The position numbers and the translations under genes were made by a program. This document shows positions 4,672 to 36,587 of a stretch of 64,000 nucleotides of DNA, one piece after another. How positions within the stretch are numbered: the stretch's first letter is position 1; each line of letters opens with the position of its first letter. A model generated the notes under the pieces. It saw nothing but the letters and a program-made list of their open reading frames with translations, made no database searches and had not been told where the DNA came from. This stretch comes from a virus. The stretch is from positions 62,001 to 126,000 of the IMG/VR virus record IMGVR_UViG_3300047476_001426. One strand, given 5' to 3'.

Positions 4672-6585
4672 TTAAACTTTTACAAATTGTTTAGTTAATT
4701 GTTTATTATAATTATGCAAAACCAAGTAATAATTACCGGCTGCGGATGATGTCATATCGATTTGTTTATATGCAATTTTCTCTGATGAATTGGTTGTAAC
4801 AGAACCGATGTTTTTCACCAATTGACCTCTTACATCATAAATTGAACCGTTCATTTCCATGTTTGGATTTGGGAATCTAATTTCAATTTCAAACCATCCA
4901 CTTGTTGGGTTTGGTCTTATTGATGCTGTAATCTCATCAATTGATTGGTCTGTAGGTGGTGCCATTTTATACATGATAACCGCAACACTACTAACCAAAT
5001 CAATATTTAAATGGTCACCCTTCTCATCTGATGCATCCATTAATTGTCTCACATAAATGTTACTTACAATATCATTACCACCAATTGGTGAGAATTTAAG
5101 TTTAAATGGTGTTGATTGACCTATTAAACCATCTTTCATCTGATTGTTCATCCCACCGAATCTAATTGTACCATTAGAAGCATCGTGAGTAACATATTGT
5201 AACCATGGACCACCATTAAAATTTGATATAATCTCCTCAAACTTAACTTTAGTTTTATCGTATTTCATTTCAAACTGTAAACCATAATTGTTATCACCAT
5301 TTGTGTTAACATTGAATGGTACATATAATGGTTGACTTCCTGATGCTGAAGTATTAGGTATTTCAACATCTAATTTACCTTTAAACACCGCCTTAGCAAC
5401 TAATACCCCCGATGAGTTCCATACTCTTGATGAATACGTTCTGTCTACGTCACCTTGAATAAAGTACTTAATGTTTACTGTTTTATTAACTAAACCAACA
5501 CTATCCGTGATAAAATTGGTTGCGGTTAAATGGTTTGGCCAATCATTCCATTGAGTTGAACCTAAAACTAAAGAATCATAAACACTCGCGTGGAAAGTTC
5601 TAATCATTGTTGTGGTATCTATCTTTTTCATACCACTTACGTTCGCGTAAATTAGATATGGGTCACCACCATCCAATTTTCCGTTTTGGTTCATATCACC
5701 AATAAGGTATGCCAAACCATTTTTTAAGTATTGTTGTCCAAATCCTTGGTTAACGTCTGTAATTGTGTATTCATCATATGTCTTTACAGCGTCTGATATT
5801 GTAACCGCGTAATCTCTGAAGACTTCCATACTATCTGCTGGAAATCTAACCAATAATTTATATTTGGTATTTTTATCTACATTGTTTAATGAGTAGTTAC
5901 CAGCGGTGTCACATAAAGAAGATGAAACAAATGTGCCTGTATTATACTTTGTACATATTACTGTTGGTCTTCTACCGGCCAATTTCATTGTTGGAGGTAA
6001 TTCAACAACACCACTAATCACCAAGTTACCCAAAAGTTCAAGGTGCATATCTTGTACATTTAAGATTGCGATGTTATCACCAATTGTAGAACCGTCATAC
6101 TTAAACATTCTTGCCCAGTTAATTTCAACACTGTCAGCATCAAAGTTTGATTCTACGTCATTAATAATAAATTTGTTATGTATTAAAAATGTGTCTTGTG
6201 TTATTTGAGAACCACTTGAAAGTACCAAGAAATTTCTTGCCACAGTATAGTTGGTATCACTTGTGTATGAATACAAACCTGTACCTGAACTGTAACTTGA
6301 ATATTTGTAATTGTTAAAGAATTTTATCGAAAGTGCTGGAGTCATGGTACTCACAGTTGGGTCAACAGTAGTTGATACGTGAGTAAAAAGTTGTTTCCTA
6401 TATTGGAAATCAACTTGGAATGTTCTCACATCAACCGCGGATGCTGGTGTGTATTTAAACACAACATCTAAAGTATCACCTCTTTTGATAGTTTTATACG
6501 CAACGGGGTTACCTATTTCAGGTGTTTGTGAAAACGCCATTGTCGTGACAAATAAAGTAATTAGGGATAAAATTATTTTTTTCAT
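4672..6585 (-). CDS. Secreted cohesin/dockerin-like protein with T9SS sorting domain
   Basis: 637 aa with signal peptide (MKKIILSLITLFVTTMAFSQ). Residues about 25-190 and 430-540 look like cohesin-type beta domains (RTFQVDFQYRKQLFTHVS; LQFEMKYDKTKVKFEEI). A calcium/dockerin-like loop (GDMNQNGKLDGGDPYLIY) lies near 300. The last about 80 residues (IRPNPTSGWFEIEI, YDVRGQLVKNIG, GNYYLVLHNYNKQLTKQFVKV) match a type A T9SS C-terminal sorting domain, which in Bacteroidetes directs cell-surface secretion. A T9SS-tailed protein in a phage implies use of the host secretion system. Its start overlaps the stop of 6582-7079. Confidence 0.8.
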   Translation of the reverse strand: MKKIILSLITLFVTTMAFSQTPEIGNPVAYKTIKRGDTLDVVFKYTPASAVDVRTFQVDFQYRKQLFTHVSTTVDPTVSTMTPALSIKFFNNYKYSSYSSGTGLYSYTSDTNYTVARNFLVLSSGSQITQDTFLIHNKFIINDVESNFDADSVEINWARMFKYDGSTIGDNIAILNVQDMHLELLGNLVISGVVELPPTMKLAGRRPTVICTKYNTGTFVSSSLCDTAGNYSLNNVDKNTKYKLLVRFPADSMEVFRDYAVTISDAVKTYDEYTITDVNQGFGQQYLKNGLAYLIGDMNQNGKLDGGDPYLIYANVSGMKKIDTTTMIRTFHASVYDSLVLGSTQWNDWPNHLTATNFITDSVGLVNKTVNIKYFIQGDVDRTYSSRVWNSSGVLVAKAVFKGKLDVEIPNTSASGSQPLYVPFNVNTNGDNNYGLQFEMKYDKTKVKFEEIISNFNGGPWLQYVTHDASNGTIRFGGMNNQMKDGLIGQSTPFKLKFSPIGGNDIVSNIYVRQLMDASDEKGDHLNIDLVSSVAVIMYKMAPPTDQSIDEITASIRPNPTSGWFEIEIRFPNPNMEMNGSIYDVRGQLVKNIGSVTTNSSEKIAYKQIDMTSSAAGNYYLVLHNYNKQLTKQFVKV

Positions 6586-10797: not shown

Positions 10798-11008
10798 AAA
10801 GAAACTTCCTTACAGAAGGTGATAATGCTTCACTGAAAGGACTACTGACTTCCAAGTGGGTCGCAACCACAATCGGAAGGTACGACACGGCTCAGTAGAC
10901 TCTGTAACGGACCCTGCTCTATGGTGCACACATAACAGGTGATGGGGAACAAACCATCGGTAAAATCTAAACCCACGGTGAGCGTGGAAGGAATGTTTCT
11001 TTTTTTAA
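10798..11008 (+). ncRNA. Large structured spacer RNA closed by a long stem
   Basis: AAGAAACTTCCTT near the start pairs with AAGGAATGTTTCTT near the end, followed by a T run. Inner stems include AACAGGTGATGGGG/CCATCGG-type pairs. It fills the tRNA-Leu to tRNA-Arg gap. No ORF. Antisense ORFs here are shadows. Confidence 0.5.
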
Positions 11009-15310: not shown

Positions 15311-15652
15311 ATGAGAAAAAACTAGATTAACAGACTTGTAGTCGTAACCCGTAAAGACTTAAAACCCGGGTACCAAATTGCACAATCGGGACATGCAATC
15401 TCTCAGTTCATTTTAGAACACCCCGAATTGTCGAAACGATGGAACAACAGTTATCTGATTTCATTATCCATCGATTCAGAAGAAAAATTACAACAATTAC
15501 TTTTTAGGTTAGAAGATTCAGGAATACCTGTATCTCATTTCATTGAACCCGATATCGGGAATCAATTAACATCTATTTGCTTTCTCGAAACCGAGGAAAC
15601 AAAAAGATTCACATCATCATTGCCTTTATCCTTAAAGGAATATAATAAATAA
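15311..15652 (+). CDS. Peptidyl-tRNA hydrolase type 2 with in-frame amber codon 5
   Basis: The reading frame starts ATG AGA AAA AAC TAG ATT AAC, then runs open to TAA. After the TAG the protein starts NRLVVVTRKDLKPGYQIAQS, the expected first strand and catalytic-site region of PTH2, followed by GHAISQFILEHPE and HFIEPDIGNQLTSICFLE, which match the PTH2 fold. About 112 aa, normal PTH2 length. No other ATG lies before the conserved core, and the host-type promoter fits this start. Expression is predicted to need readthrough of TAG by the tRNA-Sup(CTA) at 16386. PTH2 recycles peptidyl-tRNAs released from stalled ribosomes. Confidence 0.7.
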
Positions 15653-15672: not shown

Positions 15673-15927
15673 ATGAAGTAGATTAACAAAAAATGTGAAA
15701 TTATTTTTCACTTCAACAAGAAACACTTGGAAAATCCGACGATTCCAATGTGGGTTGTGAAATGTCGGGGCGACACTTATTATGTTCATCATGTTGATGT
15801 CTCACCGGGTGTGGGATTCTCAACAAAAGAAACTCCCGATAACCCTCATACCAAAGGGAGTATAAAATTCAAAGCAAATTTGGAAATTGAGGAAAACAAT
15901 AACATAATAACAGCTAAAATTTTTTAA
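15673..15927 (+). CDS. Small protein with in-frame amber codon 3
   Basis: The frame is ATG AAG TAG ATT AAC AAA AAA, then open to TAA at 15927, about 84 codons. After the TAG the product reads INKKCEIIFHFNKKHLENPT, then MWVVKCRGDTYYVHHVDVSPGVGFSTKETPDNPHTKGSIKFKANLEIEE. A shorter start at an internal ATG would remove the first beta strand. The TAGATTAAC context is identical to the PTH2 gene immediately upstream. Function unknown. Confidence 0.65.
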
Positions 15928-16385: not shown

Positions 16386-16457
16386 GGTCTCGTGGTGTAG
16401 CGGTAACATTACGGTCTCTAAAACCGATAGTCACGGGTTCAAATCCCGTCGGGACCA
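16386..16457 (+). tRNA. Amber suppressor tRNA (anticodon CTA)
   Basis: Acceptor GGTCTCG/CGGGACC, T-arm ACGGG TTCAAAT CCCGT, anticodon loop CTCTAAA with conserved T33, giving anticodon CTA that pairs with UAG. The D-arm (GTGTAGCGGTAACAT) is close to the phage tRNA-Gln D-arm, suggesting glutamine charging, but other identities are possible. The structure is fully canonical, so it should be functional. It lies downstream of two genes with early in-frame TAG codons. Confidence 0.9.
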
Positions 16458-16497
16458 CAACAAAAAAAAATATTTTTAAAAAAAATTACAAAAATAC

Positions 16498-16527
16498 TTG
16501 TTTTTTAAAAAAAGTTTTGTATCTTTG
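16498..16527 (+). promoter_or_regulatory. Bacteroidetes-type promoter of the TerD-like gene
   Basis: TTG at 16498-16500, 19 nt, TATCTTTG at 16520-16527. It shows that the following CDS starts at 16565 rather than at an upstream ATG in the same frame. Confidence 0.75.
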
Positions 16528-16564
16528 TACCACAACAATAAATAATACATTTAATACGACATTT

Positions 16565-18637
16565 ATGACAACAAGAAATTTAGTTGCATTTCAAAAGAAT
16601 TTGGTGTGTTCACCAAACGACGGTCAAGATAACAGAATCGCTGTAGCAACCGTACAATCCCACCTAATGCAATGGGGTTACATGTTAGACGAAGACGCTT
16701 TCTTCGCATTAGCCAAATCAGATTTATCGTTTATTCAAAACTTCAATGATGAAGTGTTGAATCATTTGAAAAATGTAATGGGAGGTAAACGTAATTACCA
16801 ACCTTTATATAAAAACTTCCCACAAGAAGTGATGGTTATGTCCGACTTCGAATTGTACATGAATGCAATCATTCATTATTGGAGTAACGGTCAATGGGAA
16901 CCATCTACCCATACTTACGAAAAAGAAATCAAGTTTGAGAAAATCAAATACAACTTGATTAAGTATGGTACTTCGGAAAGATTCTCAAAAATCTTCACTG
17001 ACTTAGTGTCAATAAACACATCGTTAACTCCTCAAGACCTTGAGATTGTTAAATGGTTTGTTGAGAGCGGTGAAACATTAGTCTTCCCTGACACAATTCC
17101 ATTCAAAGAGAATTTGTGTACATTGGCGGCAATGGGAATCTCGGGATTACCAGTTAAGACTTCAACCGATGTGTTAAGAATCGCCGTTCATCTTTCAGGT
17201 GGTGATATTAGTTTACCAAAAGTTCCTCAAAAGGAAATTAGGGCAAGTGTATGGACCACCCAAAGGATTACGAATCCTGAAAGAGAAAAGTTTAAATTCA
17301 AGAAATTCTCTCGTAAAGAGAGAAAATACATCTTGGGTTTACTGGAGAACACAAACTGTGACCCACGTGAAATGGTTTTAAGAGACCAACGTTGGGTACG
17401 TTTAGGTGAAATATTACACCCGGGTGAATATAAAAACCAATTCCCTAAGTCTTTCGAGGCCTTCAACAAAATCCGAAACGAGAAAGTTAAATCTTGGTTC
17501 GCACTTGTTAACGAAGGTTTCAATAAAGGATTAGAGAATGGTTTGAGAGTTTTGTCTCAAAGACCTGGTGAGTTCTCTCGTAGAATGGATTGGTTGGTTC
17601 GTACATATCCAAAAGATATTGAACTGATTATGAAGTTCTTCGGAGAAGCGGTAAAAGGTACATCAAACAAAGTATTGTTTGAAGTTTACACTCACTTTGA
17701 AAATCGTACTGAACCTATGGATAATAGGTCTATTATGATAAAAGGGGCGAGAAAACGTACCACATTACCATCACTACCAGCAATCCCTAAAGAGATTGTG
17801 GAAACCATCCACTCTAAATTATTCGAAACACTTAGAGATAAGTTTTCGGTAATGGAATCTTTAGGTAACTGTTGGATTGATGAGGAATTGAAAAAAATTC
17901 CTTTACCAACCAACATGAGAAGTATGAACTTCTCAACTAAACCAACAATCAGAGGTCAAAGAGTTCCACTCGATAACCCTGATGCAAAAGTTATCAGACC
18001 GTTTGTTCATTGGATGGATAAACGTGGTAGCGAAGACTTGGATTTAAGTGTTACGTTTGTTGGTGAAAAGGTGTCAGAAGTACTATCTTTCAGTAACTTG
18101 AGAGTTGGTAAATCTTGTCACTCAGGGGATGTGAGACATAGACAGGGTCCTTGTGCCGAGTACATCGACATTGATATTCAAGATGCATTGAAAAGAGGAT
18201 TCAAATATGCAGTCATTGATGTGAGAAACTTCAATGGAGGTACTTTGAGTTCACTTGAAACGTCTTTTGGTATCATGGAACGAGAACACCCTGAATCAAA
18301 CAAAACATGGTTACCTGAAACAATTTCAAATTGTCAATCATTGGAATCAGCGTCGTCAAACACATTGATTTCTATTATTGACCTTGAAACTAAGGAGTAC
18401 ATCATGTTGGATATTGATTCATCAGGTTTCGTTACCGCAAGAGGTGACTTCAAACACACTCTTAAAGTGATTCAACAATACGCTGAATTACCAAAAGTAA
18501 GTGTTTATGACCTTATTCTTCTACACGTAGAAGGTCGAGGAAAACAAGTTACCCTTGATGAAAATGTCGACGTACACTTCAAGTACGAGGACTTCTGTTA
18601 CTCTTATGAGGAAACAGGAAAATTAATGGGTGTGTAA
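16565..18637 (+). CDS. Large cytosolic protein with C-terminal TerD-like domain
   Basis: 690 aa from ATG 16565. The N-terminal two thirds is mostly helical. The C-terminal third (FVHWMDKRGSEDLDLSVTFVGE, FSNLRVGKSCHSGDVRHRQGPCAEYIDIDIQDALKRGFKYAVIDVRNFNG) matches the TerD-like module of large tellurite/stress-associated bacterial proteins of the MXAN_6230/SCO0854 type: DLDLS strand, HSGD and the YIDID strand. TerD domains bind calcium and occur in stress and conflict systems. Neighbours handle tRNA and ribosome rescue, so an RNA-related stress role is inferred. Confidence 0.6.
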   Translation: MTTRNLVAFQKNLVCSPNDGQDNRIAVATVQSHLMQWGYMLDEDAFFALAKSDLSFIQNFNDEVLNHLKNVMGGKRNYQPLYKNFPQEVMVMSDFELYMNAIIHYWSNGQWEPSTHTYEKEIKFEKIKYNLIKYGTSERFSKIFTDLVSINTSLTPQDLEIVKWFVESGETLVFPDTIPFKENLCTLAAMGISGLPVKTSTDVLRIAVHLSGGDISLPKVPQKEIRASVWTTQRITNPEREKFKFKKFSRKERKYILGLLENTNCDPREMVLRDQRWVRLGEILHPGEYKNQFPKSFEAFNKIRNEKVKSWFALVNEGFNKGLENGLRVLSQRPGEFSRRMDWLVRTYPKDIELIMKFFGEAVKGTSNKVLFEVYTHFENRTEPMDNRSIMIKGARKRTTLPSLPAIPKEIVETIHSKLFETLRDKFSVMESLGNCWIDEELKKIPLPTNMRSMNFSTKPTIRGQRVPLDNPDAKVIRPFVHWMDKRGSEDLDLSVTFVGEKVSEVLSFSNLRVGKSCHSGDVRHRQGPCAEYIDIDIQDALKRGFKYAVIDVRNFNGGTLSSLETSFGIMEREHPESNKTWLPETISNCQSLESASSNTLISIIDLETKEYIMLDIDSSGFVTARGDFKHTLKVIQQYAELPKVSVYDLILLHVEGRGKQVTLDENVDVHFKYEDFCYSYEETGKLMGV

Positions 18638-20770: not shown

Positions 20771-21167
20771 GGGGGTGTATGGAATCGATTGGCATTGATA
20801 TCCTAAATGGGCACGTAGTCGGACTTCATCTACGACTTAAATCTACGGTGGAAAAATTCAAACGGCAACGTTTACAACAACATGGAAGTAGCAGGTCTTC
20901 TTGCAACTTCTAAAGTTGCTGCCTAATCGGCAGTAACTAACGGGTCGGTGGACACATAACCTTGGAACAGAAGTCCTTACAGTGTAATACCACTTAGAGT
21001 GTTAGGAGAATGGCCTGACTGTCTCTTTAAATTATAGTCAGGAACAGGTTTGTTGTTTTTCTGTGTATGAAATCAAATATTTGTTGGTTGTGAATAACCA
21101 AATAAACGTGTAGTCCATTTATGGTATGATGAGCAAGACGCGGGTTCGAAACCCGCCACCTCCACCA
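20771..21167 (+). ncRNA. ssrA: tmRNA (SsrA) with long tag reading frame
   Basis: The 5' end GGGGGUG pairs with CACCUCC at the 3' end, followed by ACCA, and the T-arm is GCGGG TTCGAAA CCCGC. Near the 5' end UGGAAUCGAUUGGC resembles the conserved tmRNA segment UGGAUUCGACGGG. The tag frame probably resumes at GGC (20864), after AAAC as in Bacteroidetes tmRNAs, and stops at TAA 20924-20926 in the loop of stem GTTGCTGCC/GGCAGTAAC. The predicted tag is GNVYNNMEVAGLLATSKVAA, 20 residues ending VAA, unlike the short host-type tags ending ALAA. tmRNA rescues stalled ribosomes and marks products for proteolysis. Confidence 0.85.
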
Positions 21168-36036: not shown

Positions 36037-36587
36037 TAATAACCCATTCTTTTATTATGTACCCCATACGCGGTGTTCAACCAATCGCCCATAAAATCAT
36101 AATGAGGACAAGAAATTATATTACCATCAACAACAACTGGACCCACATCAAATGTTGCACCCGCGTTTTCAATATCAACACTAATACTGTAATATCCCGA
36201 TACTCTTCTATTTTGTAAAACTTTAGATGATATTAGTAATTGAGCACCGTTACAGATAGAAAAAATCGTTTTATCTAAAAAATTCCATCTATTAATAAAT
36301 TTAAGTACCCCCTTTTCTTGTCTAACTTTTTCAAGAGCTTTAACACCTCCCGGTAAAACCAAAATTTCATATTCTTGAAGATATTGTTCAATTATATTAT
36401 CATCTTCAAAAATTGTTGTTGGAACGTCACATATCATATGACTCCCCAAACTACCCCAAATCTTACCTTCTTTATTCGCCATTAGCGTTACTTCATATCC
36501 ATGTTCTTTTAGACTATAGTATGGATAAATGAGTTCATGGTCTTGGTATTTCTCCCATGTGATTATTAATGCTTTCTTTTTTACCAT
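36036..36587 (-). CDS. DJ-1/PfpI family protein
   Basis: 183 aa. ALIITWEKYQDHELIYPYYSLKEHGYEVTLMA, EYEILVLPGGVKALEKVR and the nucleophile elbow TIFSICNGAQLLISS with Cys. Full length for the family. The role in a sugar cluster is not obvious; it could be a glyoxalase/deglycase-like enzyme handling reactive carbonyls. Confidence 0.8.
   Translation of the reverse strand: MVKKKALIITWEKYQDHELIYPYYSLKEHGYEVTLMANKEGKIWGSLGSHMICDVPTTIFEDDNIIEQYLQEYEILVLPGGVKALEKVRQEKGVLKFINRWNFLDKTIFSICNGAQLLISSKVLQNRRVSGYYSISVDIENAGATFDVGPVVVDGNIISCPHYDFMGDWLNTAYGVHNKRMGY

Follow-up and report, generated by a model that had tools for sequence, protein, structure and literature searches.

Sequence comparisons that start from a 64,000-nucleotide stretch of viral DNA (bases 62,001 to 126,000 of the IMG/VR record IMGVR_UViG_3300047476_001426, which totals 136,485 bases; hereafter the window) point to a natural gene switch in many large phages, in which one or two small genes carry a stop codon just past their start and the same genome encodes its own tRNA for that stop, usually nearby. 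In the window the two genes are a divergent homologue of peptidyl-tRNA hydrolase 2 (PTH2), termed here gene A, and a small gene of no described family, termed gene B. They close an array with 25 other tRNA genes and are followed on the same strand, 458 bases 3' of gene B, by a tRNA whose anticodon is CUA (Table 1). As this anticodon pairs with UAG, the tRNA is an amber suppressor. Gene A begins with ATG AGA AAA AAC TAG ATT AAC (15311-15331) and is then open to a TAA at 15650-15652. Gene B begins with ATG AAG TAG ATT AAC (15673-15687), and its frame runs from the ATT at 15682 through 81 open codons to a TAA at 15925-15927. An earlier note on this DNA had drawn attention to the open frame behind the TAG of gene B and to the succession of two genes with an amber codon at codons 5 and 3 followed by ATTAAC, and both descriptions are borne out by the sequence. 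We assign a probability of about 0.88 to the reading that the suppressor tRNA encoded by the phage itself reads the TAG of these amber-blocked genes as sense, and that their proteins would be made only with the tRNA present.

Searches of viral contigs yielded 90 confirmed stretches with gene B alone as the query, 303 with an alignment of B and 186 with the PTH2-like family. Most of these stretches share one layout, namely an ATG, a few codons, a TAG and then the conserved domain. In the PTH2-like family 87 of 92 distinct proteins have an in-frame TAG, as do 93 of 130 distinct B proteins; in both families it falls mostly at codons 2-5, and neither TAA nor TGA occurs there in any of them. The 37 B proteins with no counted TAG are largely found beside an interrupted partner: 27 share their locus with a PTH2-like gene, which is usually directly upstream and itself amber-blocked, and several of the remaining 10 accompany a PTH2 gene that has an amber or opal codon and was too divergent to enter the count (in Phosso, Atu_ph07 and the loci L055 and L296). 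In L055 (around 5991-6040), B has no early TAG and carries an in-frame TAG about 16 codons in, within the conserved region; the PTH2 gene adjoining it upstream has the early TAG. Three loci show a second PTH2-like match just upstream, likewise after an ATG and a TAG (L386 at 1712 and 2465, L403 at 4246 and 4989, L429 at 4247 and 4986), and these represent either tandem amber-blocked copies or a remnant.

The restriction to TAG and to these two families also emerged when related loci totalling 942 kb were scanned for any frame with a start-proximal stop common to several loci. The two large TAG clusters were B (50 loci) and the PTH2-like family (33 loci), and the other TAG clusters comprised only 4 and 3 loci; with the control stops the largest clusters had 4 loci for TAA and 6 for TGA, some of the control clusters being antisense to the cassette. 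The scan covered loci that searches with B or PTH2 had brought up, so it identifies the codon and the genes concerned and does not tell how frequent the cassette is. The codon after the TAG is ATT in 75 of 106 cases, and the codon after this ATT is variable. The base immediately after the TAG is A in 148 of 180 cases and a purine in 178 of 180; a purine (A or G) in this position favours suppression over termination.

A second line of evidence is the linkage of the interrupted genes to suppressor tRNAs. Among the nonredundant B loci, 95 in all, a CUA tRNA lies at most 3.4 kb from B in 83, always on the same strand as B, and where a locus has a single tRNA, it is the CUA tRNA in 38 of 39 cases. 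Two further loci (L033, L067) have a CUA tRNA farther away. As gene and tRNA are on the same strand and usually close, one transcript could supply both. Fourteen CUA tRNAs, several of which ARAGORN had missed, were added from Rfam matches or pattern scans; those assigned in L029, L065 and L254 have irregular anticodon stems, and some candidates from the pattern scans turned out to be tRNA-Arg(UCU) and were rejected. ARAGORN names every CUA tRNA 'Pyl'. On the architecture of the tRNA, pyrrolysine decoding is disfavoured for the window: the long anticodon stem and tiny D loop of tRNA-Pyl are missing, and the ordinary tRNA model fits at 63.7 bits. Outside the anticodon the CUA tRNAs of the relatives are very diverse and, judged by tRNA similarity, their nearest isoacceptors are spread over many amino acids. 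After CUA, the commonest nearest tRNA to B is tRNA-Cys(GCA), in 16 of the 95 loci (e.g. L022-L031). Two kinds of structured RNA, of unknown or poorly known function, were also seen in these surroundings: a freshwater-2 RNA opposite in strand to the CUA tRNA and shortly upstream of it (L064 5461-5541, L078 2714-2794) and a GOLLD RNA near the cassette (L014 8641-9047, L238 2986-3450, L243 3348-3810).

Third, stop codon and anticodon covary in one relative. The PTH2 gene of the isolated Agrobacterium phage Atu_ph07 has a TGA at codon 7, and the genome carries a UCA tRNA, which its authors likewise give as the single suppressor (PMC6102473). In Phosso, a relative of Atu_ph07, the PTH2 gene has a TAG at codon 4 and the genome has two CUA tRNAs. 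The earlier note had overlooked both this covariation and the CUA suppressor tRNA, which is the likely agent. Two other isolates have the amber form: RHph_I1_18, in which B has an early TAG, is unannotated and is followed shortly downstream by a CUA tRNA, and pT24, in which the PTH2-like gene has a TAG at codon 3 and a CUA tRNA lies about 2.5 kb upstream. The PTH2-like genes of Phosso, Atu_ph07 and pT24 have been annotated with a start inside the domain or past its beginning, as expected if the annotation pipeline had skipped over the early stop. The stretch read of contig G024, which is possibly incomplete, has 37 tRNAs by ARAGORN and no CUA tRNA, and TAG is likewise absent from the PTH2-like gene of this contig (L431). 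Phage genes of other PTH2 subfamilies (phiM19, SCTP-2, XacN1 ORF295) are annotated without an interruption. XacN1 has two tandem CUA tRNAs (L294 2047-2205, corresponding to XacN1 36047-36205), with one small ORF and then about 2.5 kb containing no annotated genes; we looked for an amber-blocked gene next to these tandem tRNAs and recognised none.

Several observations weigh against gating by a suppressor tRNA. For several amber loci the searches turned up no CUA tRNA, and two of these lie on large contigs (L081, 188 kb; L250, 330 kb). Conversely, L076 and L073 have a CUA tRNA yet a B with no TAG, and L068 and L069, both partial contigs, have neither TAG nor CUA tRNA; many contigs of the relatives are partial. 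The TGA/UCA pairing was found in a single case, and the relatives are phylogenetically non-independent, so that the counts given above are not to be read as probabilities.

The strongest of the competing explanations places the start of translation at a non-AUG codon behind the TAG, in most cases ATT, either directly or by re-initiation once a mini-ORF has ended at the TAG. It would fit the prevalence of ATT as the codon following the TAG, and also the genes of mycobacteriophage cluster C, which read ATG or GTG, then TAG, then GTG; the PTH2-like gene of the mycobacteriophages BadAgartude, Myrna and Phabba (L264, L265, L096) begins in this manner, with a CUA tRNA near. As a Shine-Dalgarno-like stretch in cluster C also fits the GTG after the TAG, such genes are ambiguous between an amber-blocked start and a plain GTG start. 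We nonetheless regard a start after the TAG as improbable in general. Where amber B genes have a Shine-Dalgarno sequence, 41 of 49 place its end 6-8 bases ahead of the ATG, and the codon following the TAG is mostly 15-22 bases away and can also be GTA, ACT, AAC or CCC; a Shine-Dalgarno sequence that fits the ATG, together with a variable codon after the TAG, argues for initiation at the ATG. No Shine-Dalgarno sequence was seen before the amber genes of the window or of its near relatives. Moreover, a start after the TAG accounts for neither the linkage to CUA tRNAs nor the TGA/UCA case.

Somewhat less probable still is a phage-wide reassignment of TAG to an amino acid, as in genetic code 15, of which genes A and B would be ordinary examples. 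The CUA tRNA of the window would suit it, as would the rarity of TAG as a stop, which ends 4 of 129 sizeable genes. Against it, the large genes of the window are identical under table 11 and with TAG read as glutamine, and in the related loci a start-proximal TAG is widely common to two families only. In-frame TAG codons in many genes, the hallmark of code 15, were not seen among the large genes of the window, no gene-by-gene search of the genome having been made. Long ORFs that are intact under table 11, along with a TAG that still serves as a stop, do not look like a genome-wide change of code, and we disfavour this explanation for the present record. The PTH2-like gene of the uncultured 735-kb phage LR756501 (L260) has a second in-frame TAG in addition to the early one; hence that genome may be recoded more widely.

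A further alternative, which we rate as very improbable, is that the CUA tRNA is an initiator and UAG itself the start codon. The TAG does directly precede the conserved domain, with a CUA tRNA near; however, the tRNAs lack the three G-C pairs in the anticodon stem that mark an initiator (that of the window has ACGGT/ACCGA), an ATG stands before the TAG at a variable distance, and where a Shine-Dalgarno sequence is present it is normally spaced for that ATG. Starts at ATT and at UAG are both disfavoured. Finally, that the early stops are chance occurrences, sequencing errors or the mark of pseudogenes is scarcely credible: the repeat of the nine-mer string at the two stops is by itself within chance, but the same TAG stands in a near-identical place in well over 100 distinct proteins with intact frames behind it, and this conservation refutes the proposal.

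That string deserves separate mention, since the earlier note had taken it as unlikely to be fortuitous and as indicating either a readthrough signal or a shared leader. The window contains three copies of the nine-mer TAGATTAAC, where 1.24 would be expected, and three or more copies arise in 12 of 100 shuffled sequences; the repeat by itself is therefore insignificant. Its final codon, AAC in the window, is not conserved in the relatives, which rules out the nine-mer as a signal. Readthrough itself is strongly supported by conservation, and ATTAAC as its signal is not, given that the codon after ATT varies. A shared leader finds no support either, as ATG and TAG are separated by different distances and different codons in the two genes, and likewise among relatives. 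The comparison with relatives that the note had proposed as a check found the TAG conserved, and the weight of the finding rests on the surroundings of the genes and on their relatives rather than on the nine-mer.

Returning to the suppressor tRNA, an early stop matched by a linked suppressor tRNA, the feature expected of a gene gated in this manner, is what the window contains. From this and the comparative evidence we infer that the stop is read through, that the phage tRNA is the agent and that the arrangement acts as a switch. The proposed cassette would have two parts: 1) a phage amber suppressor tRNA and 2) the blocked genes, one or two in number, with an amber codon just past their start. 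Ribosomes would initiate at the ATG and reach the UAG within a few codons, where either release factor 1 would terminate translation, leaving a product of a few residues, or the phage CUA tRNA would insert an amino acid and the full protein would follow. Such a cassette would constitute a feed-forward gate, with the PTH2-like protein and B remaining off until the suppressor tRNA has been made, processed and charged.

The protein of gene A matches the Pfam PTH2 model at 25.8 bits (cut-off 23), and a profile of its family recovers the solved PTH2 structure 2zv3 in a comparison with the PDB (E = 3.9e-10). The lysine of the GK.xxQ motif is the catalytic residue of PTH2. At the aligned position the PTH2-like family has Y, T, A, L, S, Q or V, and as the usual catalytic lysine is missing we make no claim of an active peptidyl-tRNA hydrolase. 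The 84-residue product of gene B has no convincing match in Pfam, PHROGs, NCBIfam, PADLOC or the PDB sequences, and a single scan of bacterial genomes with the B alignment recovered no relatives. B represents an undescribed protein family that annotation pipelines have overlooked; they pass over B and misplace the starts of PTH2-like genes because of the early stop codon. As to function, we tentatively suggest that the gated proteins help the cell cope with the disturbance of termination caused by amber suppression, their dose being tied to suppression. In an equally speculative extension, the switch would be widespread in nature and the PTH2-like protein and B would act on termination or ribosome rescue, as an antidote to suppression that is made only by suppression.

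A start-proximal stop as a control element has a precedent in prfB, the gene for release factor 2, which is autoregulated through an early in-frame stop at which termination competes with recoding by a +1 frameshift. The proposed cassette resembles prfB in the position of the stop and in that expression would be set by competition between termination and recoding, and it differs in that a cognate suppressor tRNA gene is linked to it, whereas prfB relies on the frameshift and involves no tRNA gene. Phage CUA tRNAs are otherwise known together with genome-wide recoding of TAG under code 15 in crAss-like and Lak phages (PMC9523058, PMC10879173). As in those phages, a CUA tRNA would here read TAG as sense in a standard-code host; unlike them, with TAG in many genes, the codon is confined, as far as tested, to a single start-proximal position in one or two genes. 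Closer to the present case are standard-code phages with one or two suppressor tRNAs. The authors on Summit (PMC9022506) and XacN1 (PMC5852040) state that the target of the suppressor tRNA was not found, and where the papers on Atu_ph07 (PMC6102473) and RsoM2USA (PMC8504454) treat suppressor tRNAs they name no target. The present analysis, which of these four phages covered Atu_ph07 and XacN1, differs from these papers in offering a specific candidate target, including one for Atu_ph07, on a point that several of them left unresolved. The logic is also that of an engineered feed-forward loop in E. coli, in which a suppressor tRNA and an amber-blocked gene are co-controlled to give tight expression (PMC7969014); the cassette suggests a natural counterpart in phages, in which the tRNA and the gene could be transcribed together. 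We found no description of such a cassette in the open-access literature, which leaves out most subscription journals and preprints.

Table 1. The interrupted genes and the suppressor tRNA in the window (position 1 is the first base of the window)
Feature	Position	Strand	Remarks
PTH2-like gene (gene A)	15311..15652	+	113 codons with TAG as sense; ATG at 15311
In-frame TAG of gene A, codon 5	15323..15325	+	TAG near start in 87/92 distinct relatives
Gene B	15673..15927	+	84 codons with TAG as sense; known family: none
In-frame TAG of gene B, codon 3	15679..15681	+	TAG near start in 93/130 distinct relatives
CUA-anticodon tRNA (amber suppressor)	16386..16458	+	ARAGORN; Rfam tRNA 63.7 bits

The neighbourhood of the cassette in the window includes some additional features. 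About 4.3 kb downstream of the suppressor tRNA the phage encodes a tmRNA (20771-21167; Rfam RF00023, 98.4 bits), and since tmRNA acts in ribosome rescue, its occurrence alongside the suppressor tRNA may mean that the two are connected. Directly after the suppressor tRNA, at 16517-18637, lies a gene for a 706-residue protein that matches the NCBIfam MXAN_6230/SCO0854 RING-domain family at 235 bits against a cut-off of 600, and also phrog_33734. A freshwater-1 RNA, whose function is unknown or poorly known, scores just over the cut-off at 10903-10965.
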